DNA of 64,000 nt, taken from contig NZ_JBEJGX010000003.1 in NCBI RefSeq assembly GCF_040253635.1, positions 9,052,767-9,116,766 of the forward strand. The letters run 5' to 3'. Every line of letters starts with the position of its first letter. Position 1 is the stretch's first letter. A program made the translations under genes and the position numbers. The notes beneath the pieces were generated by a model. That model did not search any database. It worked only from the letters and a program-made list of their open reading frames with translations, and was not told the DNA's origin. This DNA is from Streptomyces sp. Edi2 (GTDB lineage: Bacteria; Actinomycetota; Actinomycetes; Streptomycetales; Streptomycetaceae). Positions 2,656 to 60,058 of this stretch are shown here, piece after piece.

Positions 2656-3030
2656 ATGATGGGATCCAGCTTCTTCGTCAGCGCCGACCAGCCGAACGGT
2701 GCCTCCTGGCCGTTCTCCACCGATCAACTGGTCGACTCCATAACCCGGTTGTGGCCCAGCAGCGCCGTCGGAGGCGGGCACGGGGACGTCCTTGAAATGG
2801 ACGTTCATGTCGATGGCCGGACACTGACCTTCGACTGGAACATCGCACACCAGGTACTCCGCTTCCCCGACCAGGATCCCCTCGCCGAACCCGCGCGCAT
2901 CGTGCACCGGCTGCTACGCGAGGTTGCACCCGATGTCCCCGCCGTCTGGTGGACGGAGTGCGACGCGACGCCGGAACCGATCGACTTGTCGCCCGATCCT
3001 GAGATATTCGTTCGCGATTTCGTCGGCTGA
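2656..3030 (+). CDS. conserved hypothetical protein, 124 residues
   Basis: Starts at ATG 2656 behind a GGAAGGA ribosome site. The protein has no signal peptide or membrane segment; it contains one acidic beta-alpha unit (V-L-E-M-D-V-H-V-D-G-R) and a short tail rich in Asp/Pro. I do not recognise the family. It diverges from the lectin gene across 220 bp that probably hold both promoters. Codon use and GC are like the neighbours, so it is likely a real gene. Confidence 0.7.
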   Translation: MMGSSFFVSADQPNGASWPFSTDQLVDSITRLWPSSAVGGGHGDVLEMDVHVDGRTLTFDWNIAHQVLRFPDQDPLAEPARIVHRLLREVAPDVPAVWWTECDATPEPIDLSPDPEIFVRDFVG

Positions 3031-3058
3031 CACCCACCCAGGCCCGTGAGGACTGTAA

Positions 3059-3075
3059 CGCGGGCCCGGCCCGCG
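3059..3075 (+). terminator. short GC hairpin
   Basis: CGCGGGC, three-base loop, GCCCGCG directly after the stop at 3030. Plausible terminator of the small gene, though the stem is short and no T-run follows. Confidence 0.4.
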
Positions 3076-3152
3076 AGGCGGCTGCCCGGCCGCAACAGGA
3101 TCCCGGCTCGCAGCACGAGCCCGGTCCCCGGTGCCTTGGCTAATCTGCTCGG

Positions 3153-6100
3153 GTGACCATCGACCTGACCCTGCTGCCGCGTGTCGCCTATCGCGGACAG
3201 GAGGTCACCGCGCCCCGGCTCCGCGGCCTGCTCGCGCTGCTCGCGGGCGACTTGCGCACCGGCTGCAGCACCGAACGGCTGGTGGCAGGGCTGTGGCCGG
3301 ACGCGTTGCCGGAGCGGCCGGCAAAGGCGGTGCAGGTCCTGGTGTCCAGGGCGCGGGCGCAGCTGGGCGCCGGCGTCCTCGTCAGCACGCCGAGCGGGTA
3401 CCGGCTCGCCCTCGCCGAGGAGCAGGTCGACAGCTCCGCCCTGCTGCTGCACGCCGCCGCCGGCGCGGACCGGGCCAGGGCCGGCGACCACGCGGGATCG
3501 CTCGCTGCGGCCGAGGCCGGACTCGCGCTGTGGGAGGGCACTTCCGACGGGGACGTTGGCACCGGCGACCCCATAGCCGCGTTACGCGCCGAGCGTGTCC
3601 CCGTCCGCGGCACGCTCGTCCGCACGCAGGCGCTCGCGCTCGCCCGGCTGGGCCGGCACGCGGAGGCAGCCGGGCCGCTGGCCGGCGCCGCCTCGGAACA
3701 TCCGCGCGACGAGGAAGTGCTCGCCGAGCTGCTGCGCGGTGAGGCGGCGACGGCAGGCCCGTCCGCCGCGCTGGCGCGGTACGAGGCCTACCGCCGTGCG
3801 TTGCGCGACGAACTCGGCACGGACCCGGGCGCCGGGCTCAAGGCGGTACAGCAGGAACTGCTGTGCGGCGAGGCACCTGTGGTCAGGCACGGCGTACCGC
3901 ACGAGCCGAATCCACTCCTCGGCCGGGACGAGGACATCGCGGCGGTGGCGCGGCTGCTGCGCGCCTCCCGCGCGGTCACCGTCGTCGGCCCCGGAGGCCT
4001 CGGCAAGACCCGGCTCGCATACGCCGTCAGCCGCCGGGCCGAGCAGCGCGTGGTGTATGCCGTGCCGCTCGCCGGCGTCACCGCGGACGAGGACGTGGCC
4101 GCGGAGGTGGCCTCCGCACTCGGCGCGGGCGAGGGGCGGCACGGCGCCGTGAGCGGTCGCGCCTCGGCCGACCCGCTGACCGGCATCCTCGGCGCGCTCG
4201 GTTCCGGGCCCGCCCTGCTGGTGCTGGACAACTGCGAGCAGGTCATCCGGGGCGCCGCCGCCCTCGTGCGGGACCTGCTCGCGTCCTCGGAGGACCTGCG
4301 GGTGCTCGCCACCGGCAGGGCCCCGCTGGGCCTCACCGCGGAGGCGGTGTACGCGCTGCCGGAGCTCGGTCTCGACACCTCGGCCGAGCTGTTCGCGCAG
4401 CGGGCCCGGGCCGCCCGGCCCGGCGTGGAGCTGCCGCCGGACGCGGTGGCCGGGCTGTGCCGCCAGCTCGACGGGCTGCCGCTCGCCGTGGAGTTGGCCG
4501 CGGCGCGGGTGCGGGTGCTGTCGGTGCCGGAGATCGCCCGCCGGCTCGGTGACCGGTTCGCTTTGCTGCGTGGCGGGGCGCGGGATGTGCCGGAGCGGCA
4601 CCGCACGCTGCACGCGGTCGTGGAGTGGAGCTGGAACCTGCTCGCCGAGGACGCCAGGGCGGCGCTGCGCACGCTGTCCGTCTTCCCCGGCGGCTTCTCG
4701 GGCGAGGCGGCGGAACAGGTGCTGGGCGAGGGCGCGCTGTTCCTGCTGGAGCAGGTGGCCGGTCAGTCGCTGCTCACCGTCGCCGACACCCCGGCCGGCG
4801 TGCGGTTCCGGATGCTGGAGACCGTACGGGAGTTCAGTGCGGCCCGGCGCGCGGAGGCGGGTGGGGAAGAGGAAGCCGTCGGCCAATTCCTCGCCTGGGC
4901 ACGGAACTTCGGGGTCGCTTACCACGACGTGCTCCTCGGCTCGGGACCAGAACCTGCCCCGGGCTCTCGGCTCCATCCCCCGGCTTCCGGCTCCGCCCGG
5001 GCGGGGGAGACTTCCTTGCGCAGGGAAGACCCCCTTGCCGCCCGGGAGCGGATCAGGGCCGAGCAGGACAATCTCGTGGCGGCCCTGCGGTACGCCCTGG
5101 CCCGTACGGACGGACCCGCCACCGCCGCCGTCACCGCCGTCCTCGCCGTCTTGTGGTCGACCGACTCCAACTACCCCCGCCTCGTCGCCCTCGCGGCCGA
5201 CACCGGCCCGCCGCTGTCGCATTACCACCCCGAGCCCACATACGTCGAAGTCGCCCGCGCCGCCGCGGTGTTGTGCACGGCGAGCCTGTTCATGAACTAC
5301 AGCCCGCAGGGCATCCGCCAGCTCGTCACCCTCCGGCGGCTGCCCCCGGCCCCGCCGGACACGCTGCTGCGCGCCGCCGCTGTGGTGCTGAGCGCGGTCC
5401 CCGAGATGCTGCCTCCCGGTTACGAAGTGCTGCACAGGCTCTGCGACAGCGAGCAGCCGCTGGTCGCCGGTATCGCGGAGTGCGTCGCCACCTACCTCTG
5501 GGAGTACGAGCACGACCTCGACCGCGCGCTCGCCGCGGCCCGCCGGATGACCGCCGCACTGGCACCGGTCGACAGCCCGTCCCTGCAGGTCGTGGGCCAC
5601 TCTCGGCTGAGCGAGCTGTGCTTGAAAGCGGAGCAGGGCGAGGCCGCTTACGTATCCCTCAAGGCGGCGCTCGAGGCGCTGCCGCGGTTCGGCGACGCGC
5701 ATGACTACATCGGCATCCGCTGGGGCCTCGCTCTTGCGTGCCTGCAGTGTGGTGACCCGGACGAGGCCGGGTTCTGGCTGCGGCAGGCGGAGGGCGACGG
5801 CACTCCGCAGCAGGACATCTTCTACAGTCCCGACCTCGGCGTGCGCGCCGAGATCGCGCTCGCTCACGGGCTGCCGGAGGCCGGACTCGGCCTGTGGCGC
5901 AGCGCCGTGGAGCGGCTGCCCGGGGCCGGCTCGATGTACAGCCGCGACCCCTGGCGCGACCCGTGGGCGCTGCAGATCCAGTCGGCAGCGGTGACCGCGC
6001 ATGCGTACGCCGGCCGTCTCGGGCCCGTCGCGGAGACGGTCGACCGGCTGCGGGAGCGGCTGCGGACTCTGCTCTCCGGCCCGTCCCACTCGCGCATGGA

Positions 6101-9039: not shown

Positions 9040-9613
9040 GACTGAAGAAAACGTCGACTGCCCGACCGGCCGTCCCTCCACGGCCGGTGAGGGATTGCGC
9101 GAGCACGAGGTCCGCACGGCCCTGCTCGACCTGCTTGCCGAGGTCGGCGCCGTCACGGCGACCGAAGCGGCCGTCCGGCTGGGCTACAGTTCCGGGCTCT
9201 GCTCATTCCACCTCCGGCAGCTCGCCCGCCACGGCCACATCGAGGAAGCCCCTCACCGGGGAGGCCGCGCACGTCCTTGGCGTCTGCGCCGGCCCGCTGC
9301 CGAGTCCGACCCGTCCACCGAGGGTTTCGGTGACCTCGCCCGCGGTCTGGAGGACGAGAGCTGGCAGCACTGGCTCGACCAACGAGAGCAGGCGCCGGCC
9401 GAGTGGCGCCACGACGAAGCGTTCAGTGCCGTCGCCTATCTGACACCCGAGGAGATGAGCCGGATGGCAGCCGTGATCCGTGGAGCACTTGCCCCCTATC
9501 AGGACCGCGACCACCGACCCCTGGCCCGCCCCGAGGACGCCCGGCCGGTTGCCCTCATCACCCGGCTGTTCCCTCTGCTTCCCCACCCGGCGGACGACGC
9601 GCACGAGGGCTGA
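9038..9613 (+). CDS. winged-helix (ArsR-like) transcriptional regulator
   Basis: About 191 residues from GTG 9038. A winged-helix core spans residues about 20-85: L-L-D-L-L-A-E-V-G, then T-A-T-E-A-A-V-R-L-G-Y-S-S-G-L-C-S-F-H-L-R-Q-L as the helix-turn-helix, and a basic wing (G-R-A-R-P-W-R-L). The remainder is acidic and helical. No ribosome site precedes 9038, so translation may be leaderless or begin at a nearby codon. It stands head to head with the deformylase gene and probably binds the twin palindrome next to its start. Effector unknown. Confidence 0.8.
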   Translation: MTEENVDCPTGRPSTAGEGLREHEVRTALLDLLAEVGAVTATEAAVRLGYSSGLCSFHLRQLARHGHIEEAPHRGGRARPWRLRRPAAESDPSTEGFGDLARGLEDESWQHWLDQREQAPAEWRHDEAFSAVAYLTPEEMSRMAAVIRGALAPYQDRDHRPLARPEDARPVALITRLFPLLPHPADDAHEG

Positions 9614-9704
9614 GAAGCCGAGGTCCGTCCGTGGTGCCGAGGTCCATCCGCTGCTCGGAGGCCCGTCGGACGGGTGGGCGCCAACGTGGGCGCCAACTCT
9701 GAAG

Positions 9705-10181
9705 TCAGAGCGGCTGATCCAGGTGCACGGTCGTGGGGCGGAAGCCCGCAGCTTCGTAGAACTCACGAGCACCCACATTGAACTGCCAGACGTCCGTGAC
9801 GAGGCGTCGGCAGCCTGCCGCGCGCCCCACCTCACGTACGGCCTCGAGCAGAGCTGCGCCGACACCCCTACGAGCGGCATCGGCGACTACGGCGATCTGA
9901 TCCAGCGACACGATGACGTCCGAGCGCGTCAGAGCGGTGCCGGGACGGTCTTTGACTCGGGCGACGGCGTACCCGAGGGCTTCGCCTTCCGTCCCCTCGG
10001 CGAGGAGCACGGTGACCGAGGGATCGGCGAGCTGAGCGCGGAAGAAGGCTTCGACGGCAGCCGCCTCCGGGGACTCGGCGAACAGGTCGGGACGCTGTCG
10101 TGTGTGCAGGTCATGAACGATGTGGTTGAGGCTTGCGAGCAGGACAACATCGCCCGGAACAGCGGTGCGAATCTGGATCAC
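9705..10181 (-). CDS. GNAT family N-acetyltransferase
   Basis: A 158-residue GNAT protein: the acetyl-CoA loop reads A-A-R-R-G-V-G-A-A-L-L-E-A, followed by the C-terminal N-V-G-A-R-E-F-Y-E-A-A-G-F motif. The start is placed at GTG 10181, with AGGA eight bases upstream and immediately before the first predicted strand (I-Q-I-R-T-A). A longer in-frame extension upstream is compositionally unlike protein. Substrate unknown. Confidence 0.85.
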   Translation of the reverse strand: MIQIRTAVPGDVVLLASLNHIVHDLHTRQRPDLFAESPEAAAVEAFFRAQLADPSVTVLLAEGTEGEALGYAVARVKDRPGTALTRSDVIVSLDQIAVVADAARRGVGAALLEAVREVGRAAGCRRLVTDVWQFNVGAREFYEAAGFRPTTVHLDQPL

Positions 10182-10316
10182 GTCGCCATCCTGGCCGGTT
10201 GGCGCCGTCGCTGCCACATATTTCGGGGCATGGGCACACGCAGACAACCCGGGCCGGTACCCAGACACCCGGACGCGCGCCGAGAAGCCCGCCAGGGCCG
10301 ACTGCGTGCCGGACAC

Positions 10317-10715
10317 TCAGGGACCTTGATCTCGAACCACGGTTCCCTGGTGGTAGACGACCGTCCAGCCGTCGGCTTCCTGCTGCCAGATGGTCGCCCG
10401 CCGTGTCCTGCGTCCGTTGAGGACCAAGGTGTACGTCAGCAGATAGACAGTCGCGGCAAGTTCCTGACAGCGGAAGTCGGACGCCTCCCACTCCTCGACC
10501 TGCGGGGCCTTGCACCGCTCCTCCAGGACATCGAGTACATACGCTCGGCTGTAGCGCTCTCCTGACGCGCCTGTCTCCCAGAAATCCGGCGCTGTCATGG
10601 CCTCGAAATCGGCCCGTGTCGTTCCGAACTCGGTTCGGTGGAAGAGCGGTTCCCTACGGACGAGATCGTCGAGAACACCGCGTAGTCGCTCGTGGGTCAC
10701 GAGGTCGGCCTCCAT
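10317..10715 (-). CDS. DUF4440/NTF2-like protein
   Basis: A 132-residue single-domain protein of the cone-shaped NTF2/SnoaL fold type: N-terminal helix with R-E-P-L-F-H-R-T-E-F, then M-T-A-P-D-F-W-E-T-G, then paired strands ending W-Q-Q-E-A-D-G-W-T-V-V-Y-H-Q-G-T. Members of this family are small enzymes or binding proteins of mixed function. The ATG at 10715 has GGGGG just upstream. It lies 135 bp upstream of the GNAT gene on the same strand. Confidence 0.8.
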   Translation of the reverse strand: MEADLVTHERLRGVLDDLVRREPLFHRTEFGTTRADFEAMTAPDFWETGASGERYSRAYVLDVLEERCKAPQVEEWEASDFRCQELAATVYLLTYTLVLNGRRTRRATIWQQEADGWTVVYHQGTVVRDQGP

Positions 10716-10728
10716 CCTCACCCCCTGA

Positions 10729-10890
10729 TCAGTGGTGGGCCCAGAGGAACATGACGGCCGCAGTCACGAGGGAGGCAAGAAAGACCCAGAGGCCGGAGGA
10801 GCCGCCCCCACTGCCACCGTCCCCATTGTCGGAAGCACCGTCACGGTGATGATGGCCGCCGCCCCCGCCAGCTCCGTCCACAGAACTCAC
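10729..10890 (-). CDS. small Gly/His-rich protein with C-terminal membrane anchor
   Basis: A 53-residue candidate: a Gly/Asp/His-rich hydrophilic segment followed by one membrane helix at the extreme C terminus (L-W-V-F-L-A-S-L-V-T-A-A-V-M-F-L-W) and a short A-H-H tail, like a tail-anchored peptide. GTG 10890 is the likely start, but a longer form cannot be excluded and the ribosome site is weak. It ends 13 bp before the NTF2-like gene on the same strand. Confidence 0.45.
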   Translation of the reverse strand: MSSVDGAGGGGGHHHRDGASDNGDGGSGGGSSGLWVFLASLVTAAVMFLWAHH

Positions 10891-11094
10891 CCCGTCCGGG
10901 TTATCCAACGTTCGATGCGCACTTGTTGACGTTACCGCCTCCCGGAAGGGGGGCCGAGCCCGTGCGCAACAACCCCGGTGTGTTCGGGACAGTCCACGCC
11001 CTAACGACCGTTGCTGGTGCAGCCCGTAGCCCGTCATGACCGGGTCACCGAACGCGTCACGATCGATGCAACGGAGCTCTCGCCTGCCCCGCCA

Positions 11095-14727
<3,633 letters not shown>

Positions 14728-45324: not shown

Positions 45325-47985
45325 TCAGGCACCCGTCGGTCCCTCCGCGTCCCTGGGCAGACACCCGTCGATCGTCCTCGCCAGCCGGGCGAGGGCGGGG
45401 TGGCGCAGCATGCTGTGGTGGGTGCCTTCCACCGGGTGGACGGTGGGCTCTGCGGTGGTGAACGGACGCCATCCGGACAGGCGTTGGCGCGCCTCGGTGG
45501 CGTCGCCGGCGACCAGCAGGGTCAGCGGGCCGTCGTAGCGGGACGGCCCCCAGACGGCGGCCCCGGAGACCATGGCGCAGAAGACCGCCATGCGTGCGGC
45601 GACCTGCTCCATGACCTCGTCGGGCACCAGGCCGGCTTCCCGGATCGCCGCGAGCACTGCCTCCGTGCGGGCCTGTGGGGCCAGCGGCTCCAACTGCCCG
45701 GCATCGAGTGGCGGCATCGGCCGGCCGGCCATGCCTGCCAGGTCGCGGAGGAACAGCCACAGCAGCAGCGCGTGCTGCGGCGGTTCGTCCAGCCTCGGGG
45801 GCACCGCCGGATCGAGCAGCACGAGGGCATCGACCTGCTCGCCCCGTGCCCGCAGTTGAGCCGCCATTTCGAAGGCGACGGCACCGCCCGTCGACCAGCC
45901 GCCGAGCAGATGGGGACGGTGCGGTTGCCGTGTCCGTACCTGGGCCAGGTAGTGGGCCGCCAGGGCGGGTACCGAGGCCAGCTCCGGGCCGTCGGGCCGC
46001 AGGCCCTCCGCGTCCAAGCCGAAGAACGGCCGGCGGTGGGGGAGCGCGGCGGCCAGTGCCGCATACGGGGCGGCCGAGCCGTCGCTGGCGTGCACACAGA
46101 AGAACGGTGTGCCGCCGCCCTCCTGACTCAGTGCCACCAGCGCCGCTGGTGCGGCCATGGAGGTGCCGGCCGGTGCGGCAACGGGCCGGGACGGATCCGC
46201 CTCGGCCAGGGCCCGCGCCAGGGCCCGGATGGTGCGGTGCGCATAGATCAGCCGGGGGGTCAGCGCCATCGCGTCCCGCCGGGCCCTGGCCACCAGCTGC
46301 AGCGCGACGATGGAGTCACCACCGAGGTCGAAGAAGTCGTCCTCCACGCCGAGGTCCGGGGGTGTCGAGCACTTCGGACCACAGCGCCCTCAGCAGGTGT
46401 TCGGGCTCCGTTTCCGCGGCGACCGGAGCGGGGCGAGGACGGCTGGGGAGTTCTCCCGCGCGCAGGGCCAGCAGGTCGGTCTTTCCGCTGGCGGTGCGGG
46501 GCAGTGCGGGGTGGACCACCGCTTGGGCCGGGCGCAGGGCGTCGGGCAGACCGTCCAGGCTCGCGAGCGTCTCCTGCGCCGTGACCGGCACACCGGGCTT
46601 CGCCACGATGTGGGCCACCAGACGGAGACCACCACGGTCGGCCCGGTGGGCGACGACCGCCGCCTCCGCGACCAGCCCGCCGGCGTACAGCGCGGCCTCG
46701 ATCTCGCCGAGTTCCACCCGGACGCCGTTGACCTGCACCTGGTGGTCGGCACGGCCGAGGAATTCCCATGAACCGTCGGCCAGCAGCCGGGCCAGGTCCC
46801 CGGTCCGGTACATACGGGTGCCGGGGACCGCTGCACAGGGGTTGGGCAAAAACGCCTCGGCGGTGCGGCGCGGGCTGCCGTGGTAGCCGCGGGCGGGCGC
46901 TTCGCCACCGATGAACAGCTCACCGATACAGCCGGGCGGCACCGGCAGGAGGTTCTCACCGAGCAAGTGGACCGAGACATTGTCGATCGGGCGGCCGATC
47001 GGCACGGTGGCCGTCACCCCGGCGGCCGGAGCCTTTCCAGCTGTCCCGGCGCGATGGAAGGTGGCGTCGATCGCCGCCTCCGCGGGGCCGTACTGGTGGA
47101 TCACCTCACACCCCAGAACCCGCCGGAACTCCTCCAGGAGCGCGGTGGGAAACGCCTCACCCCCGACCAGGAGGAGCCTGAGACGGTCGCAGCCGGCCAG
47201 CGCGGGGTCGCCGACCAGCCCGCTGAGCAAGGACGGCACCAGGTGGGCCACCGTCGTACCGGTGCTCCGCAGCAGCTCGCCGAGGCCGGTACTGCTCTCC
47301 GTCAGCTCCGGCGCCGACACCAGGCAGGCTCCGGCCAGCAGCGGCGCGAAGAGCTCCCAGATCGCGAAGTCGAACACCGGCGCCGCCAGCGCCAGCACAC
47401 GGCCCTCCTCGTGCAGCGGATAGGCCCGCTGCGACCAGCCGAGGCGGTTGGCCAGCGCCCGGTGCGACACCGCGACCGGCTTGGGACGACCGGTGCTGCC
47501 CGAGGTGAACACCAGGTAGGCGAGGTGTTCGGGGTGCGGCTCGGCGTCCGGCTGCGGCGCGGCCGAGGTGCGCAGCCACTCCGGGGTGCGGCACGGCACG
47601 CCGGGTGGCAGCGCGGCCGTGATCCGGTCGGGTGCGGCGGCGATGACCAGGCCTGCCCGTGCGTCGAGGAGCATGCCCCGTAGCCGTGCCGGTTCCTGAC
47701 CCGGATCGCAGACCACGAAGGGCACACCGGACAGCAGACAGCCGACGGCGGCCGTGACCAGGTCGATGCCGCGTGGCAGCAGCAGTGTCACGGTCGGCTC
47801 GGCTCCGGCGTCCGCGGCTGCGAGATGTGCTCGGGCCGCCGCTCCGCAGGCCCGTGCCACGGCGGCGAGTTCGCGATAACCGACGGACCGCCCTGCCGCC
47901 TCGACCGCCGTCCGCTCGCCGCTCCGTGCCAGTACGGCGGCGAGCTGCGGTACCAGGGTGGCCGTCGGCCGCCGTACCGAGGGGC
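45325..47985 (-). pseudogene. non-ribosomal peptide synthetase module A-PCP-TE, truncated and frameshifted
   Basis: Minus-strand adenylation domain: A3 V-F-T-S-G-S-T-G-R-P-K-P, Y-G-P-A-E, A7 Y-R-T-G-D-L, A8 G-R-A-D-H-Q-V-Q-V-N-G, A10 P-R-T-A-S-G-K-T. A carrier domain with L-G-G-D-S-I and a thioesterase with G-G-W-S-T-G-G follow. A five-G run at 46358-46362 shifts frame between V-L-D-T-P and E-D-D-F-F. No ATG or GTG precedes the A domain at the 5' end near 47985, so the start is gone. Hand-aligned pocket residues (D-F-W-H near the start) are loosely threonine-like; uncertain. Confidence 0.85.
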
Positions 47986-47995
47986 CGTGCTCGCC

Positions 47996-48766
47996 GGCGG
48001 CGAGCCGGTCGCCGGAAACGTGCTGTCCTACCTGCTGGCCGCCGCCACCCTGGTCCGGCTCCCGGCCGTGCAGCCCCGGCAGCGGCCCGCCGGAGCCTCC
48101 AAGGCGCCTGCCCTCAAAGACGTTCCGTTCGTCGTGCTGACCGTGCTCAACGGCTTGCTCGCCGTCAACGGGATCGTGCTCACCGTGGCACTGCCCTTGA
48201 TGATCATGTCGGGGCACGGCATCCCCAAGGCACTGGCCGGTCTGTTCGTCACGGCCAACACCGCTCTGGTCGTGATCTTCCAGGTACGCCTGAGCCGCGG
48301 CGCCGACACGGTGGCGGGCGGAGCCCGCGCCCAACGCCGGGCCGGGATCCTGCTCGCGCTGTCGTGCGTCGGCATCGCGGCTGCTGCGGCGGCCGGCTCA
48401 CCGGCTCTCGCCATCACCTTCCTGATCCTGGCCGTCCTGTTGCTGACTGCCGGTGAGCTGCTGCACATGGCAGGAAGCTGGGGAATCTCCTACGGCCTGG
48501 CCCCTGACCACGCACGGGGCGAATACCTCGGCGTCTATGCGCTCGGCATGGCCTTCGCCGAGACGGTCGGCCCGGTCTCCACCGCGTCCCTCGGCGTCGG
48601 CGAAGGTGCCCCGGGCTGGCTCGCCATCGCGGCCGTGTTCCTGGTCTCCGGGCTGGCAGTGGTGCCGGTGGCGAACCGCGCCCTCGCGAAACGGGCGGCG
48701 GCGCAGGCCGAGGACGCGGCACGCGGCTCCCAAAACGCCGTCGCGGCCGCGGGCGGTGCCGAGTGA
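47996..48766 (+). pseudogene. MFS transporter, C-terminal half
   Basis: From about 48015 the plus strand reads N-V-L-S-Y-L-L-A-A-A-T-L-V-R-L-P, the usual sixth helix of a drug-efflux MFS protein, then six further helices (for example L-A-V-N-G-I-V-L-T-V-A-L-P-L). The first five helices are missing: the upstream frame overlaps the NRPS adenylation gene and is not hydrophobic. So two divergent genes lost their 5' ends at one joint near 47990. It ends with GTGA overlap into the peptidase gene. Confidence 0.75.
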
Positions 48767-48892
48767 CCTGGCGCGCGCTGCGACGGTTGCTCCCTCGCTG
48801 GTCGGAGCTCCGCTGCGCAATCATCGACACCGTCAGCGAACTCACCGTGCACCCCCCCGTACTCCCCACAGCTCGCCGACGCGCTGGCCACC

Positions 48893-49747
48893 GTGGCGCC
48901 CGCCACGCTGGGGAGACACATAGCCGCACTGGCCGACGCCGGGCCACGTTGGCGCGAGGACCGGGAGAACATCGCCGCCACCCTGCGGCACCTGCGCGAC
49001 GAACTCTCCGGTTCCGGGTACGAGGTCGTCGAGGAGCGATACGGCGAAGCGCCGCACCAGATCAATCTGTTCGCCTCACTGACGGGCCGGGACCCCGCGG
49101 CGCCCCTGGTGGAGGTCGGTGCACACTGGGACACCGTGCAAGGCAGCCCCGGAGCCGACGACAACGCGAGCGGAGTCGCCGGTGTGCTCGAAATCGCCCG
49201 CGCACTGCACGGGCTCGGCCCGCGGCAACGGGGGATCCGCTTCTGTCTCTTCGGCGAGGAGGAGGAGTGGATGACCGGCAGCGGAGCCCATGTCGAGCAG
49301 TTCACCGCCGCGGGCGAGGCCGTGGAAGGCCTCATCGCACTGGAGATGATCGGCTTCCGGGACTCCCGCACGGGAACGCAACGCGCCCCGCTCCGGATCC
49401 CCGGAGTCTTCTCCCCGCCGCGGACCGGCGACTTCATCGCCGATCTGCGCTCGCTGCCCTTTGCCAACGCGGTGCAGCGCAGCGCCCGCCGGTATGTCCC
49501 GGGCCTGAAGACCTACCTCCTGAAGAGGACCGGAGGCCTGCTCCGCGACGCCGCCCGCAGCGACCACCTTCCCTACTGGCGGACGGCCCGCCGCGGCCTC
49601 CTCGTCACCGACACGGCAAACCTGCGCAACCCCCACTACCACAAGGCCACCGACACCCTGTCGACCCTCGACCTCGACTTTGCGGCAGACGTCACCCGGG
49701 CCGTGGCCGGGGCACTGATCGACCTCGCAGACCGTCAGCAGGGCTGA
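48893..49747 (+). CDS. M28 family zinc aminopeptidase-like
   Basis: A 284-residue (from GTG 48893) peptidase with the M28 zinc pattern: G-A-H-W-D-T-V-Q-G-S-P-G-A-D-D-N-A-S-G and F-G-E-E-E-E-W, plus later acidic and His ligands in A-R-S-D-H-L-P-Y-W and N-P-H-Y-H. An N-terminal extension probably starts at GTG 48763 (overlapping the exporter stop) with I-D-T-V-S-E-L-T-V-H-P-P, joined by a one-base slip in the C-run 48852-48858 to Y-S-P-Q-L-A-D-A-L. So the gene may be frameshifted near its start. No signal peptide. Confidence 0.85.
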   Translation: MAPATLGRHIAALADAGPRWREDRENIAATLRHLRDELSGSGYEVVEERYGEAPHQINLFASLTGRDPAAPLVEVGAHWDTVQGSPGADDNASGVAGVLEIARALHGLGPRQRGIRFCLFGEEEEWMTGSGAHVEQFTAAGEAVEGLIALEMIGFRDSRTGTQRAPLRIPGVFSPPRTGDFIADLRSLPFANAVQRSARRYVPGLKTYLLKRTGGLLRDAARSDHLPYWRTARRGLLVTDTANLRNPHYHKATDTLSTLDLDFAADVTRAVAGALIDLADRQQG

Positions 49748-49882
49748 ACCCCACGCTGCCCGCCTGCCGCCGTTCGCTCTTTTTGACCGGTGCCTGGGGT
49801 GTGGAGCCGGGCTGATCAGTTGGCTGGTCGGGGCCGGCGGTTGGCTGTGTGCGGGTGGGGCGGCCGGCGTTGATCGTGCGCT

Positions 49883-50360
49883 TCAGGGAAGCAGGAACAC
49901 CAGCGCGGGGGTGAATACCACCGTGATCCCGAAGCTATGGGTGTAGGCCGCCGCCGCACCTGTTTCTGCCGATCCGAGAGACCCGTAGAAAATGACGCCG
50001 ATGACCGCGACCCCCAACGCGCCGCCAACTTGCTGAGCAGTCGACAGCACCCCCGATGCCAGCCCGGCATTGTCCTCGTCCACGGGTGTGAGGATCACAC
50101 CGATCAGAGGGGATTGCAGCAGTCCGTGGCCGGCCCCCTGCAGGGACAGGCAGACGACGAGCACTCTGATGGACAGCCGAGGTCCGCCCAGCAGCGCCGC
50201 GGCCACCGTGGCCCCGGAACTGACGGTAGCGATGCCCCCTCCTAACTCAAGAACCCGGCGGCCGAAGCGCGGCGTCAACCGGCTGGAGGCCAGGCTTGCC
50301 ACGAACATGGCGACGGCCAGCGGCATGTACACCAGTCCAGCCTGGTAGGCCGGCAGCCCT
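49883..50360 (-). pseudogene. MFS transporter C-terminal half
   Basis: Minus-strand hydrophobic protein with A-G-L-V-Y-M-P-L-A-V-A-M-F-V-A, G-A-G-H-G-L-L-Q-S-P-L-I-G and A-G-L-A-S-G-V-L-S-T-A-Q-Q-V-G-G-A-L, the end of an EmrB/QacA-like exporter. It is cut at about 50360 where an IS scar begins, so the N-terminal half is lost. Confidence 0.75.
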
Positions 50361-51606: not shown

Positions 51607-52205
51607 TCATTCAGTGGCTTTGTGCAGGAGTTCGGGTACGCCCTGGGCTGTTGCGTAGTTCTCAAAATCGGGGACGAGATCACGTACGAGTCGCACGCAC
51701 CGTGGCGCGCCGATGCGCTGGGCGAGGTGAAGGGACTCCCGAGCTGCTGCGGCGGCGCGCTCCGGCTCTCGCAGATCAAGGTGGCTCTTCGCCTGGTAAG
51801 CGAGAAAGATTCGCTTGGTCTTGGACCGGCTCGGTGGCAGGAGCTTCTGTCCGTCCCTGATGAGTTGGTGAGCGCTGCGGATGTCGCCCAGCGACAGGAG
51901 GCTCTGCACGGAATCCACCGCCAGGTCCGCCTCGGACAACCATGCGGCCCAGGTCGGCACTGGTTCTCCGGATGCGGCGTTGAGCAGGTGTTCGGCAGCG
52001 GCGAGGGCGCGAAGGGTGCCGCGTCGCTCGCCTTGTGCGGCCAAGGCCCGGGCAAGCCGGAGCTGGAGCAGAGACCGGGCGGCCGGATGCCGTGTGCGGG
52101 AGAGTGCTCGTTCCAGGATGCCGGAGGCAGTACGGGGGTCGTTCCGCCAGGATGCCTGGTAGGCGAGGTTGTGGCCGGTGTTGAGGATTGACCACTGACC
52201 GGCGA
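51607..52205 (-). pseudogene. TPR-containing regulator, 5' truncated
   Basis: The minus-strand frame ending at 51607 is a helical TPR protein (R-T-A-S-G-I-L-E-R-A-L-S-R-T, W-L-S-E-A-D-L-A-V-D-S-V-Q-S-L-L-S-L-G, F-E-N-Y-A-T-A-Q-G) like the C-terminal part of Streptomyces XRE-TPR regulators. There is no DNA-binding part and no start: at about 52205 the frame runs into the next gene's 3' end. It was probably cut by the arrival of the HEPN/TOPRIM island. Confidence 0.65.
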
Positions 52206-52219
52206 GAAGGCTGCAGACC

Positions 52220-53551
52220 CTACTCGGGCTTGGGCTCTGCCAGGCTGATGAGCGTCTCGGCCAGGCGACGCATCGGATTCCACTCGCTCCCCAGGGCCGT
52301 CTCACCCCTTTCTGCTTCTCGGAGCATCTCCTTGATGCGCCCTTGGACATGGGGCTTGTTGACAAGCTCACCTTGGTAGTCGTTCATCGGGTCGATGTGG
52401 GTCTTCCAACGCACTGGGACCGGCTTGCCGTCCGGCCCGACCAGGCAGTCTTGGCCGAAGTAGAACTCCACGGAGCAGGCTCGACCCGTGACGTCATCGG
52501 TCGAAGCGCCAGAGGGACCGAGGGTCGGGTAGGACTGTGCGTAATCCAGATCGGGCAACCTGCAGACCCCGTAGTGGTCTGGGAGAGATGCGCTGGCCAG
52601 CTGTCTCTCTGCTTGACGGCCTGCTGTGTCGTTGTCCAGGATGCCGATCACTCGATTCATGACGCCTGCGGCAGCGAAGCTCCTCAAGTTCTTGACGACC
52701 TGATCTGTGCCGCCAGCAGCCTTTGTGCTCTCAAGATCCCAAAATTTGAAGTATCCAGCGATCTCCGGACGGACAAGCCGGAGCGCCCGGGGTATAACCT
52801 GCGCATCGAATTTCCCTTCGGTGATCACAATGATGGGGCCCGTGCTTGCAGTCATGGCGTTCAACTCGCGGACGGCTTGAGCAGACAGGTCTTCATAGCT
52901 GCTGCAGTAGCCAGCCGCCAGGAGGTCCGACAAGTCCATCGTCGCCCGGGTGTGCGATTCCTGACCGTGGAGAAGTGCGGCGAGGAAGAGCCTTGGATCA
53001 TCGGCTTCGTACTCAAGGTATGAATCCAATTCCACCAAGCATGCCACCGCGATCGGATCTAGGTGAGCACCCCTCGGCCCGTCGTGATCGTATGACTTAA
53101 TGTGGGCTGCGAGTCCGGTGTCGATCACTTGCTCGCAGGACATCTGGTGAGGTGTCGCCGGGGCCCCACGGGCCGAGCTCACGAGGAGGATGTCCTCCGG
53201 TTGCCCATCGTCCTTGAGTCGCGATCTGCGAGTCTCTGCCATCGACCTCCTGCTGACCTCCGGCGTGAATCCCATAAGCCTTAGGCGCGTGAGGACGGTT
53301 GCGACTGTGCTGCGATATCCAAAACGGTCGGCGCTGTCCTCATAGTGGCCATCCCAAGTCTGGAACTCTTGCAGCTCCGGCGGAATCGCTTGACTATCTG
53401 GAATGCTGTTGAGTCGGTCGACCTTTTGCGCCCAATCGGCTTTCATGTATTTGTCTTCTTCTTGGAAGACAGTCATGAGCCGCGACGGGATATCGTTCTT
53501 TCCCCACAGAATCAGCCGCTCTCCCAGTAGCAGCCGCCATGCACTTCCCAC
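52220..53551 (-). CDS. HEPN/Toprim-associated domain protein, probable defence protein
   Basis: A 443-residue protein. The N-terminal start G-S-A-W-R-L-L-L-G-E-R-L-I-L-W-G-K-N-D matches the HEPN_Toprim_N family, followed by a helical region with F-L-A-A-L-L-H-G-Q (about residue 189). A TOPRIM domain spans about 238-330, with the acidic residue in V-I-T-E-G-K-F-D-A (Glu245) and D-N-D at 306-308 in G-I-L-D-N-D-T-A-G. The C-terminal Y-P-T-L-G-P and N-D-Y-Q-G-E-L-V-N are family motifs. GTG 53551 has GGAG six bases upstream. Base composition is clearly lower in GC than neighbours. The family is predicted by comparative genomics to act in phage conflict; this example is untested. Confidence 0.85.
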   Translation of the reverse strand: MGSAWRLLLGERLILWGKNDIPSRLMTVFQEEDKYMKADWAQKVDRLNSIPDSQAIPPELQEFQTWDGHYEDSADRFGYRSTVATVLTRLRLMGFTPEVSRRSMAETRRSRLKDDGQPEDILLVSSARGAPATPHQMSCEQVIDTGLAAHIKSYDHDGPRGAHLDPIAVACLVELDSYLEYEADDPRLFLAALLHGQESHTRATMDLSDLLAAGYCSSYEDLSAQAVRELNAMTASTGPIIVITEGKFDAQVIPRALRLVRPEIAGYFKFWDLESTKAAGGTDQVVKNLRSFAAAGVMNRVIGILDNDTAGRQAERQLASASLPDHYGVCRLPDLDYAQSYPTLGPSGASTDDVTGRACSVEFYFGQDCLVGPDGKPVPVRWKTHIDPMNDYQGELVNKPHVQGRIKEMLREAERGETALGSEWNPMRRLAETLISLAEPKPE

Positions 53552-53632
53552 TAGCAACTCCGTCTCAATGCCGCTATCGAGTCATGGTGATGATGTCAGA
53601 AGTGACCGCCATCTTCCTCGGGTTTCCCCCTC

Positions 53633-54033
53633 TCACCGACATCCTCTCTTGGAGTGGATGCTCGTAACCTTGGAAGCATCCTCAAGCGCCTCGCGGAGCC
53701 GTTCGTTGGTCAGTGCAAGCTGCTGGAGCTGAGCGACGGCGAGCGCAAGGTCTGAGGTCAACTCCTGGTTCTGCGGCGGAGCTTCGCGTTCCGGGCGATG
53801 AGCCTGTCGTGCGTGGTTGGCCCGTCGGCAGGGTCGGCAGGGGTGGACCGGAGGGCGCCGAGCTCTTGGGCGATGTCGGGGAAGCGGCGGCGGAACGTGG
53901 TGTTGCTCAGGCCGAGTTGACGGGCCAGCTTCAGGACGCTGGGTTTGGTGTTGGTCTGTCGGCAGGTCACGATCATCTCCGCCATCCGCTTGCGGACCAG
54001 GGCCTCGGGCAGGTCAGAGACGCGGGCGGTCAC
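53633..54033 (-). pseudogene. DUF6262 (Tn554 TnpC-like) gene with frameshift
   Basis: GTG 54033 begins P-E-A-L-V-R-K-R-M-A-E-M, then a small helix-turn-helix L-K-L-A-R-Q-L-G-L-S-N-T-T-F-R-R-R-F, and R-N-A-K-L-R-R-R. A stop then comes early, but the shifted frame continues a coiled coil (Q-E-L-T-S-D-L-A-L-A-V-A-Q-L-Q-Q-L) to a stop at 53633. This is the layout of DUF6262/TnpC of Tn554-type elements. It overlaps the recombinase stop by GTGA. Confidence 0.65.
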
Positions 54034-54714
54034 GTGAAGGACTCTGTACGTGTGTTGGCGGCCAGGAACTCGGTGATCTCAGCGTGACGCTGCTGGATGC
54101 GGTGCCGCAGGAGGGGAGGCATGGCCGGCCGCGCGACCATCCTCTTCTCCAGGCGAGCCAGTTTCCGACCCCAGGCAGCGACGTTCTCCGAGGTGAGGGC
54201 AACATTTCTGCAGGCCAGGGGCTTGCATCCGCCGTGGTCGGGTAGCCCTTCGCTTCCGCCGCGCTTTGCTTTCTCGCAGAGGGCTTTGGCGGGGTCGCGG
54301 ACGCACGTGATGTATTCGCCCGGGTTAGACGGCTGGATCATGCCGCTTCATGATCCGTTTCAGGCGGTGCTTGTGGAGGGCGATCTGCCCCTGGAACTGG
54401 TCTCGTTCGCCGAACTCTCCGAGTCGCCGGGCAACCTCTTCGGCCGACGGGCTGGTCAGATCGGTGTGCTCATGGGCGTCGATCATCGCGATGTAGATCT
54501 CGCCCCGGGCGAGGGCTTGTTCGCTCTCGACCTCGGCCCGGAAGCCGGAGGTACTGGTGCCTGCATAGCCTTCGAACATCTGGATGCTGTGGTGGCGGTA
54601 TTGCACGGCGCCGGCGACGGCTCCGCCGGGCCGTCGTGCGATGAACCACGCGAGCGTGCGCCGGAAGACGCTGGTCTTGAACCCGGTGCGGCTGCATCTG
54701 TGTTGATGTCGCAC
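54030..54714 (-). pseudogene. Tn554-like tyrosine recombinase, C-terminal part, frameshifted
   Basis: The frame reads F-R-R-T-L-A-W-F-I-A-R-R-P-G-G, Y-R-H-H-S-I-Q-M-F-E-G-Y-A-G-T-S and H-D-P-A-V, then an early stop; one base off, the next frame continues P-G-E-Y-I-T-C-V-R-D-P-A-K-A-L-C and C-R-N-V-A-L-T. The order matches the C-terminal half of the Tn554 TnpB-like integrases. The R...H-x-x-R...Y catalytic order has the Tyr in M-F-E-G-Y. The N-terminal half is absent. Confidence 0.7.
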
Positions 54715-54747
54715 GAGAATGGTCTGTTTTTGGCTGTTTTGTGGTGC

Positions 54748-54787
54748 CTGTGGCGCTGTGGCGCTGTGGCGCTGTGGCGTTGTGGTG
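54748..54787. repeat. tandem repeat, CTGTGGCG x4 plus degenerate copy
   Basis: Four exact copies of CTGTGGCG at 54748-54779, then TTGTGGTG. It sits at the truncated edge of the recombinase remnant. Confidence 0.85.
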
Positions 54788-54804
54788 GGGTTGGTGCGGT
54801 TGGG

Positions 54805-55830
54805 TCAGTTGTTGGTGATGGAGGGTGCGGGTGTCGGTGGGGGGCGGCTGTCGAGGAGGAAAAGCTGCTTTGGGTCCTTTGTGCGGCAGGGAAGCTGGAT
54901 CACGGGGGTCCATTGCGTCGGTGGGCTTCCGTGGATCGAGGTGCAGGCGCCGGTGTGGGTGGGGACGAGTCGGTAGCGGGCGTGGCCGGCGGGTTGGAGC
55001 TGGAAGTGTTCGGCGTTTCCGCGGTGGCCGCAGTAGTCGTTCGTCAGTTGGGCGCCTGTGTGTGTGCTCCCGCCCGTCACGCCGAGGCAGCCGTTGCCGA
55101 AGACCGGGTGGAGGGAGCGGAGCCGGTAGGTGCCGTCTTCCATCGGCTCGACGGAGTAGACCGGGACGGCTTTGGCGCAGGTGGCCTGGTAGATGCGGCC
55201 GCTGCTCTCCTCTTCTCGTTCGGACAGGCAGAGCGACGAGGCAGCGGAACGGATGCGGTAGATGCCCGGCTGGGGTCCGGGGAGCGCGGCGCGGGGCGTG
55301 GCGGAGGCCGGAGCCGCACCGATGATATGTGCCGGGGCTGTTTCCTCCCGGGTGAGGCGCGTGAGCGCCAGGGAGCCGCCGGTCACGGCCAGCAGGGCCA
55401 AGGAGACGCTGCCGATGAGGCGACCGTGTGCCGGCCTCCTCGGTCCCGGAGTCGTCCCCTGTTCAGGGGACGGCTTTCCCTGGTGAGTGCCGCTTGTGTC
55501 GGTGTCGCCCGCCGCCGTGGTGTCCTCGGGGGCGGTGGTATGGGGGCTGCTGCGGGTCAGGTCGCGGTGGGCCCTCAGCCAGCGTTCAACGTCGCGCGGA
55601 GAACCACCGCAGGCGCGGACGAAAGCCTCCACGACCTCGGGGCGGGGAAGGGAACCGCGGCTGAGGGTACCGGCAAGGGTGCTGGCCGGGAGCGCGTCCC
55701 CGCGTTCTTCGGCGTGCACGGCCAGCTGCCGGTACGTCAGGCCTGAACGGTCCTTCATGAGCCGCATCACCACGACGAACTCCGCCGGAGTCCTGGCTCG
55801 CCGGGGATCGGGTGGCTGCTCGTCGGGCAT
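54805..55830 (-). CDS. membrane-anchored XRE-type protein with extracellular ricin domain
   Basis: A 341-residue protein: residues 15-75 are an XRE-like helix-turn-helix (F-V-V-V-M-R-L-M-K-D-R-S-G-L-T-Y-R-Q-L-A and A-S-T-L-A-G-T-L-S-R), then an acidic/Thr linker, one membrane helix near residues 150-170 (S-V-S-L-A-L-L-A-V-T-G-G-S-L-A-L), and a C-terminal ricin B lectin domain (G-I-Y-R-I-R-S-A-A-S-S-L-C-L, N-G-C-L-G-V). ATG 55830 follows a purine-rich run. It could sense a sugar outside and act on DNA or protein inside. Confidence 0.85.
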   Translation of the reverse strand: MPDEQPPDPRRARTPAEFVVVMRLMKDRSGLTYRQLAVHAEERGDALPASTLAGTLSRGSLPRPEVVEAFVRACGGSPRDVERWLRAHRDLTRSSPHTTAPEDTTAAGDTDTSGTHQGKPSPEQGTTPGPRRPAHGRLIGSVSLALLAVTGGSLALTRLTREETAPAHIIGAAPASATPRAALPGPQPGIYRIRSAASSLCLSEREEESSGRIYQATCAKAVPVYSVEPMEDGTYRLRSLHPVFGNGCLGVTGGSTHTGAQLTNDYCGHRGNAEHFQLQPAGHARYRLVPTHTGACTSIHGSPPTQWTPVIQLPCRTKDPKQLFLLDSRPPPTPAPSITNN

Positions 55831-56180
55831 GTCCGCCCACTCCCTCCGCTTTCCCCCGTGTTCGGAACACCGGACAGGCTCGCAAGCGTGAGCTGGACAC
55901 ACAAGAGCAAATCGAGCTGTTCGGGGCGCGGGATCGCAAATCGGGGCGGGGAGGGTGGGTTGCCCGTACTGGGACCGCAGGGGCGGTCTTCGACGCCTGA
56001 GGGAAGATTCTCTGGTTTGCGCCCTCTCGCCGCGTGCCGAGACGTCGGTGTCAACCGCAAGACGGGTGACCACTGGACCGGCGTACGGATGGTGAAGAAC
56101 AGGAGCGGTGGGGACTGTGCCGACGCGCCGGTCGTCGACAGTGAACGCGGACAACAGTCCGACTTGCCCGGCTGATCAGC

Positions 56181-58633: not shown

Positions 58634-59597
58634 TCACGAGGCCGGGGTTGAGTGCCTTTCAACCAGGTCTCTGGCGAGCTGACTGATGCGTTCGCGGGCT
58701 GTCTCTGGGGTGAGTATCTCGATGTGGTCGCCGAACTGGAGGAGCTGACGCACTGACTCGATGTCGGGGTAGCGGACGACGACGGTGCACCAGCCGTTTT
58801 CCGCGTCGGAGACGTCGTGGATGCGGTTGCCGAGGATGCGCCGCGCCAGGTCGAGTCCATTTTCTGGCAGGCGGACGGTCACGCTCACGCGACCTTGCCC
58901 CTCTGTGCGTTCCTTCAACGCGGCCCATCTGGTGCGGAGGGTTTCGCTTGGTCGGAGAGCAGCTGGCGCGTCGAGTTGTTCGTAGGACGAGAGTCGTTCC
59001 AGAGCGAACAGCCGACCGTTCCCCTGGTCATCGGCGATGAGATACCAGCGACCGGATTTCGCGACGATCCCGTACGGGTCGACCACCCGCGTTGAGGCCT
59101 GATTCTCGGCGCTGCGCCGGTATTGGATTCGCAGCCGGCGGCGGTGTCGCAGTGCCGAGGCCAGATCCGATACGTCGACCCCTGCCTCTGAGTCAGCAAA
59201 CCACGCGGTGCTGTCTACCAGCACCAGGTCCGCCAGTTGCAGCAGGCTCGGCGATCCAGGTGCTGCAGCCTGCCGAGCGGCGATCTTGCGCGCGGCCGAC
59301 TCCCACACCGCAGACAGACCCATACGCTCAAGTTGCGCGCTGTCCAAACCGGCTACGGAGAGTGCCTCCAGCTCTGATGGTTCCAGATGCGATGCGTTGA
59401 GCCGCGCACTGGGGAGCAAGACGATCCCGCCGTTCCGCCCGCGTTCGGCATAGACAGGCACACCTGCTGTCGAGAGCGCCTCGACATCCCAGCACGGTCC
59501 GCCGAGACACTTCCAGACGTCCGGCGAGCTCGGTGGTGGTGATGCGCTGACGGGCCTGCAGGAGCAGCAAGAGATGCAACAGCCTCGAAGCCTTCAT
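58634..59597 (-). pseudogene. WYL domain regulator with frameshift
   Basis: ATG 59597 starts S-R-L-L-H-L-L-L-L-L-Q and E-L-A-G-R-L-E-V-S-R-R-T-V; one base slip near 59490 then the second frame continues V-P-V-Y-A-E-R-G-R-N-G-G-I-V to a complete WYL part (G-R-W-Y-L-I-A-D-D-Q-G, V-R-Q-L-L-Q-F-G) ending at 58634. It would be a 320-residue WYL regulator of the same type as the gene at 42519. It diverges from a VOC gene with a matching operator. Confidence 0.82.
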
Positions 59598-59622
59598 ACT
59601 GACCAACCTTTGCAGAAAAGGT

Positions 59623-59635
59623 GACAGGTTCTGTC
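59623..59635. promoter_or_regulatory. palindrome GACAGGTTCTGTC, candidate WYL operator
   Basis: Arms GACAG/CTGTC, 25 bp upstream of the WYL start. Only one base differs from the core at 42481-42493 in the other WYL/VOC pair. Confidence 0.65.
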
Positions 59636-59692
59636 GCGATGCGGCGGTCAACTGGAGCAGTACCGAGAATTCAACGATCTGAGGAGCGCACT

Positions 59693-60058
59693 ATGCCCGC
59701 ACCCAACCTGTTCCTGATCGGCGTCCGCGACGCCGAGACCGCTACCGCCTTCTACAGCGACCTGTTCGAGATCGAACCGACCTTCATCAGTCCCCACTAC
59801 GTAGCTTTCGAGGTTGCTCCCGGCGTCCTGTTCGCGCTGTGGACGGGCTACAGCGAGCGTGCGGTCCCGAACACCCCTCGAACGAGCGAAGTCGGACTGA
59901 TGGTCCCAGGAGGAGCGACCGGGATTGACGAGATCTTCACGAGCTGGGTCTCGAAGGGAGTCCATGTCGCGGAGGAGCCACACGACGCTGTCTTCGGTCG
60001 CACGTTCGTCATCACGGACCCCGACGGCAACCTCATCCGGGTCTCCCCGGTGGACTGA
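59693..60058 (+). CDS. VOC family protein
   Basis: A 121-residue glyoxalase-fold protein: F-L-I-G-V-R-D-A-E-T-A-T-A-F-Y at the start and F-V-I-T-D-P-D-G-N-L-I-R-V-S at the end, both typical metal-site contexts. ATG 59693 follows GAGGAG. It diverges from a WYL regulator gene and is followed by an IS481-type element. Confidence 0.9.
   Translation: MPAPNLFLIGVRDAETATAFYSDLFEIEPTFISPHYVAFEVAPGVLFALWTGYSERAVPNTPRTSEVGLMVPGGATGIDEIFTSWVSKGVHVAEEPHDAVFGRTFVITDPDGNLIRVSPVD

Follow-up and report, generated by a model that had tools for sequence, protein, structure and literature searches.

The locus

The window analysed here is a stretch of 64,000 nucleotides of the Streptomyces sp. Edi2 genome, and its right edge is the end of contig C3 (NZ_JBEJGX010000003.1; 9,116,766 bp of a 9.8-Mb genome). 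Our subject is a single gene in it, which we call HT, whose product combines a HEPN/Toprim N-terminal domain 1 (NTD1) with a TOPRIM half and which lies as the last gene of a decayed transposon. Because the window stops exactly at the contig end, HT is placed about 10.4 kb from it. The gene, its two halves and the features that it adjoins are the following.

Window 52220..53551, minus strand: HT, the cargo gene, for a HEPN/Toprim-NTD1 and TOPRIM protein of 443 amino acids, with a GTG start at 53551
Window 52847..53551, minus strand: putative sensor half of HT (PF18871, NTD1), residues 1-235, from the Pfam match and a model of its own
Window 52220..52846, minus strand: predicted TOPRIM nuclease half of HT, residues 236-443, holding the E245-K399 set, from alignment and structure comparison
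Window 52168..52200, minus strand: right terminus of the transposon, a 33-bp signature GGTCA..GGTCA...CACAAC, from pattern comparison among related loci
Window 51607..52167, minus strand: C-terminal half of an interrupted NsdA-family regulator gene, with CTCGCCTACCAG at the junction (NF053720, profile positions 245-431 of 432)

An earlier reading of this DNA, made from the letters alone (the sequence-only reading), had picked out a low-GC, intact gene of 443 residues, and this description holds: the frame has no internal stops, and its guanine plus cytosine (GC) content is 59.7% against 68.5% for the whole window. Since HT is equally low in seven other actinobacterial relatives (58-62%), the low GC is a trait of the gene family and not of this locus. 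The ratio of non-synonymous to synonymous substitution rates (dN/dS) of HT is 0.128-0.255 against seven relatives, of which one is partial and one a broken copy, averaged over all branches. Truncation and two frameshifts have damaged the transposition genes beside it, whereas HT is free of lesions and has a low dN/dS, so that HT has probably been retained for its own function.

The right terminus begins 19 bp past the HT stop codon. In four loci (the window, L019, L098 and L096) no other gene stands between HT and the terminus, and the distance is 19-27 bp. A search with the terminus pattern across 138 loci and the window (139 sequences, with several loci from one genome) gave 20 hits, of which the one in L092 is spurious; one shuffle of each sequence gave none. 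A stricter pattern occurs at nine places in 8 of 199 whole genomes, with none in the reversed control, and only once in the 9.8-Mb source genome, at window 52168-52200. The terminus of L025 is one base off the pattern. Next to the right end, the bases differ from one element to another, as would be compatible with a footprint such as the 6-bp one of strand-biased circularizing elements. The ends form a short terminal inverted repeat, TTGTG on the left and CACAA on the right; the left end was seen in three of six elements inspected (L019, L124, L125) and not within 200 bp upstream of L015, L025 and L127.

The homology of the regulator fragment begins where the element ends. Among 21 genomes with a regulator match at E<=1e-50, the open frame has at least 439 amino acids in 19; it has 269 in G150, where a related element occupies this site too, and 258 in the window. 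Eleven of 20 other regulator loci were examined, and all eleven read in frame through the junction, with LLGD followed by LAYQA or similar residues. DNA similarity to the regulator query starts at position 232 in 10 of 11 and at 237 in one, the junction being 234, and one plasmid match ends exactly at window 52167. The regulator described earlier as cut without a start is the C-terminal half of an NsdA-family gene with its junction at the element end, and 19 of the 20 other genomes that have a near relative of it show a long open frame there. Genome G000 holds 39 NsdA-family regulator matches, 29 when those over the cutoff alone are counted; such a large paralogous family offers many possible landing sites.

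Domains and predicted active site of HT

PF18871 (HEPN_Toprim_N; HEPN/Toprim N-terminal domain 1) matches HT by a narrow pass (26.1 bits, cutoff 25, E 9.4e-6) that spans residues 1-110 only, profile positions 1-87 of 223, and two distant HT homologues match it clearly (60.1 and 65.5 bits). The Pfam Toprim profiles score 14.9, 14.5 and 12.2 bits on HT, all under their cutoffs, and a Pfam scan with matches accepted up to E 1 gave no HEPN domain, the N-terminal associated domain aside. The family name given in the sequence-only reading, HEPN/Toprim, stands for the N-terminal profile and not for a HEPN domain. HT as a HEPN ribonuclease was considered and rejected, since no such domain was found and the C-terminal half aligns structurally with TOPRIM.

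This half carries the TOPRIM glutamate (E245) and DxD motif (D306/D308), and E245, G246, D249, D306, D308, S360, E362 and K399 are invariant in all 47 aligned homologues. The residue set predicts a two-metal TOPRIM nuclease, which narrows an activity previously left between nuclease, nickase and RNA cleaver. The predicted structure of whole HT reached a mean predicted local distance difference test score (pLDDT) of 87.5, and the NTD1 half (residues 1-235) modelled alone reached 94.0, with no clear match in a PDB structure search. Mean conservation is 22% in the NTD1 half vs 41% in the TOPRIM half, the former being always lower (1485 pairs, 55 sequences). A diverged recognition part on a fixed effector would be expected of an immune protein, and the divergence could also have other causes.

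Related elements and the cargo slot

The operon of L015 (Streptomyces sp. AC555_RSS877) is complete, with four transposition genes that code in order for a recombinase (514 amino acids), a recombinase-like protein (635; HxxR not found in the conserved part inspected), a large recombinase (694) and a TnpC-like protein (139) whose gene overlaps the preceding one by ATGA. HT comes 64 bp later and is succeeded by orf6, by the terminus and by the part of comM/yifB that starts with its conserved LAANPCPCG. The L019 element also lies in comM with both ends visible, and in L025 the operon is present with its second gene in two frames. The orf6 gene (283 amino acids; 37 homologues; no Pfam match above cutoff) stands behind HT in three elements (L015 11477-12328, L016 11448-12293, L025 8405-9250), where it is more conserved (88% to L015) than HT (50-75%).

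The large recombinase, used as query, matched 16 of 295 Streptomyces genomes at E<=1e-60, the source genome included. Fifteen such regions were examined, and the cargo slot was resolved for four. In L125 and L127 the terminus comes directly after TnpC and the slot is empty (the first gene of L127 being in two pieces), that of L126 holds a major facilitator superfamily (MFS) transporter, and that of L130 measures about 7 kb. In related elements, four transposition genes are followed by a slot that is empty or holds an MFS transporter or HT.

The terminus, the target gene and the shared slot support HT as cargo of a Tn554-related transposon. The sequence-only reading had proposed a Tn554-type transposon, and only the strict type fails: Tn554 has three genes (tnpA, tnpB, tnpC), whereas intact relatives here have four. 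Related elements share with Tn554 and with strand-biased circularizing elements (SE) the tyrosine recombinases, a small TnpC/Srap-like protein, insertion inside particular genes and a short inverted repeat. The SE order intA, tfp, intB, srap agrees with the recombinase, degenerate recombinase, large recombinase and small protein found here, and the element type appears to resemble SE more closely than the three-gene Tn554. SE were reported from Gammaproteobacteria (PMC10214605), and Tn554-related pairs were reported earlier in actinobacteria (PMC3414803).

The window element itself keeps only parts of two transposition genes.

Window 53758..54033, minus strand: TnpC-like gene, N-terminal helix-turn-helix (HTH) part up to the frameshift, from similarity to related elements
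Window 53645..53773, minus strand: TnpC-like gene, coiled-coil half in another frame than the start, matching residues 88-130 of the L015 gene
Window 54030..54341, minus strand: large tyrosine recombinase, C-terminal piece, residues about 598-687 of 694 in the L015 relative
Window 54325..54714, minus strand: large tyrosine recombinase, catalytic piece, residues about 476-599 of 694 in the L015 relative

The TnpC-like gene starts at 54033, sharing GTGA (54030-54033) with the stop of the frame before it; beyond about residue 91 its frame breaks off, and the coiled-coil half is read on at 53645-53773. Compared with the 694-residue relative, the recombinase remnant retains no more than residues 476-687, split over two frames; its earlier part has no match anywhere in the source genome, and the cause of the truncation at this locus was not found. 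The frameshifted TnpC-like gene, the truncated recombinase and the GTGA overlap had all been recognised before, and the 81-bp gap to HT had been given correctly to within a few bases (a manual count from where the shifted frame stops gives 83 bp); the second frameshift, in the recombinase, had been missed. The name DUF6262 is not borne out: neither the window fragment nor the TnpC-like proteins of L015, L025, L124, L126 and L128 gave a match in scans that returned only weak HTH and coiled-coil matches, from libraries not checked for a DUF6262 model.

Two further remnants were seen among the relatives. At L015 898-1510 lies a second related element fragment, in which the start of recombinase 1 is joined directly to the end of a TnpC-like gene, and at L021 9232-9855 (= L099) recombinase 1 is cut to its first 69 residues beside TnpC and HT, an internal deletion that kept HT.

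Homologues and their distribution

At least 224 HT homologues at E<=0.001, among 7998 scored candidates, are spread over many phyla; 120 of them were listed individually. GTDB species genomes gave 90 confirmed HT loci, of which 80 were kept, and 48 plasmid records match HT. Few Streptomyces have the gene: 11 of 392 genomes, counting the source. The setting was surveyed at 14 loci from different genomes with HT of about 45% identity or more (the window, L015-L023, L025 and L096-L098), a sample to which plasmid relatives H1 and H2 of the same identity and many listed homologues do not belong. The terminus and/or transposition genes are present at eight (the window, L015, L016, L019, L021, L025, L096, L098), and neither at six (L017, L018, L020, L022, L023, L097); among these six, HT itself is broken in L017, L018 is a 3.7-kb contig and L023 lies at a contig end. 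The match to the H1 plasmid begins at window 52162, so it would take in the terminus.

The 8.5-Mb contig of L098 (G064:C1) carries HT with the terminus close to each end, at a distance of no more than about 4 kb (2819-4138 and 8496876-8498195) and with equal scores, and the two copies apparently form part of a linear chromosome's terminal inverted repeats. L020 (Micromonospora costi) has two HT-family genes in tandem (9392-11972), and in L096 (9812-12650) HT matches lie in pieces around a transposase-like open reading frame, a degraded copy with its terminus intact.

Comparison with known systems

NTD1 is described as an N-terminal domain whose fusion partner is HEPN or TOPRIM, depending on the protein, and the NTD1-TOPRIM pairing was predicted in 2013 by Anantharaman et al. 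as one of several fusions in a defence-like setting (PMC3710099). HT shares both the N-terminal domain (PF18871) and the TOPRIM effector of this family; several of its relatives are named 'HEPN/Toprim-associated domain-containing protein', and a literature search brought up no experiment on the NTD1 and TOPRIM family. The RT-Toprim protein of retron Eco2 (Ec67) aligns with HT over residues 236-443, and the two agree in all seven catalytic residues, the reported Toprim RNase active-site set. HT is not of the Eco2 type, as the Pfam scan gave no reverse transcriptase domain, and its regulation must therefore come from elsewhere, most likely from NTD1. Class 2 OLD proteins and Gabija GajA share the TOPRIM fold and, at residue level, the two-metal plan, but Class 2 OLD has an N-terminal ATP-binding cassette (ABC) ATPase, whereas HT has no ATPase match up to E 1 and its N-terminal half is PF18871.

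In the defence system PARIS, the ribonuclease is AriB, a TOPRIM enzyme that works with two metals (PMC12409363). It is freed by the ATPase AriA, whereas no AriA-like cluster recurs beside HT relatives; among the matches listed, AriA profile matches occur in both the near and the far sets of open reading frames. The same holds for defence-like families in general, which were found both near and far from HT relatives with no clear contrast among the matches listed, a result that supports neither side. PADLOC gave no match for HT up to E 1.

Function and alternative explanations

We regard it as fairly probable that HT is the surviving cargo of a four-gene Tn554/SE-type transposon and that its product is a one-protein sensor-effector immune nuclease. 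Starting from what is observed directly (the intact gene, the terminus, the target gene, the conserved catalytic set and the fold similarity of the TOPRIM half), we infer sensing, autoinhibition, a role in defence and a substrate. The four-gene tyrosine-recombinase transposon had inserted into the NsdA-family regulator gene. The NTD1 half would most likely keep the enzyme inactive and most likely recognise something made during phage infection, upon which the TOPRIM half would cleave nucleic acid, probably cellular RNA, by two-metal catalysis, and shutdown of the cell would stop phage growth. RNA is slightly favoured over DNA because the residue set is that of Eco2.

Several bacterial immune systems are known to use a TOPRIM nuclease as effector, and in each of them it has an elaborate partner such as an ABC ATPase or a retron. 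We suggest tentatively, and with less than even confidence, that NTD1 is a new direct infection sensor wired to an ATPase-free two-metal TOPRIM nuclease, making a further class of TOPRIM immunity, next to OLD/Gabija, PARIS and retron Eco2, that spreads in actinobacteria on four-gene SE-type elements landing in comM and NsdA-family genes. If true, a widespread family with one compact domain in the partner's place would be the simplest version of such systems, and easily tested. What this analysis adds is the conservation of the catalytic residues, the pattern of divergence, the seeming absence of a partner and the precise transposon context with its variable slot. The mapped element end shows how such genes move in Streptomyces, and the same slot could be mined for other cargo.

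The alternative that survives best, plausible though doubtful, keeps the architecture and makes the TOPRIM half a DNA nuclease or nickase, like OLD or Gabija, that would act on incoming phage or plasmid DNA. Its appeal is the shared fold and metal plan; the seven residues are nevertheless identical to those of the Eco2 RNase, at the positions of Bp OLD E404 and T506 it has D249 and S360 (a pairing made partly by motif order), and HT lacks the ABC ATPase domain that OLD has.

It is unlikely that HT is a maintenance or toxin-antitoxin-like module stabilising a mobile element rather than a phage defence. Its repeated occurrence on mobile elements, including the plasmid records, and the position of orf6 behind it in three elements would agree with such a role, but no recurring antitoxin-like partner was seen beside HT relatives, and the window copy is intact though it has neither orf6 nor a working element to stabilise. 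We find it more improbable still that HT is an accessory factor of the transposon, for example for DNA nicking in circularisation. Its place as the last gene, close to the terminus in four loci and in operon orientation, would suit this role; L125, however, matches all four transposition genes and the terminus without HT, as does L127 with its first gene in two pieces, and HT relatives occur in many phyla at loci without a match to any of the four transposition proteins from L015. That HT is a housekeeping enzyme of RNA processing, comparable to RNase M5, is scarcely credible for a gene of so few Streptomyces genomes that is found several times on transposons.

Flanking genes

On the upstream side, the large-recombinase remnant adjoins a short GTGGCGCT repeat (window 54719-54800), beyond which lies a gene with HTH and ricin-type lectin domains (54805-56154). 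Left of the island, window 46319-50332 holds an AMP-binding adenylation enzyme, an M28 peptidase and a short open reading frame whose MFS match falls below the cutoff. From the island toward the contig end, window 58634-60058 encodes a WYL-domain regulator and a glyoxalase-fold protein.
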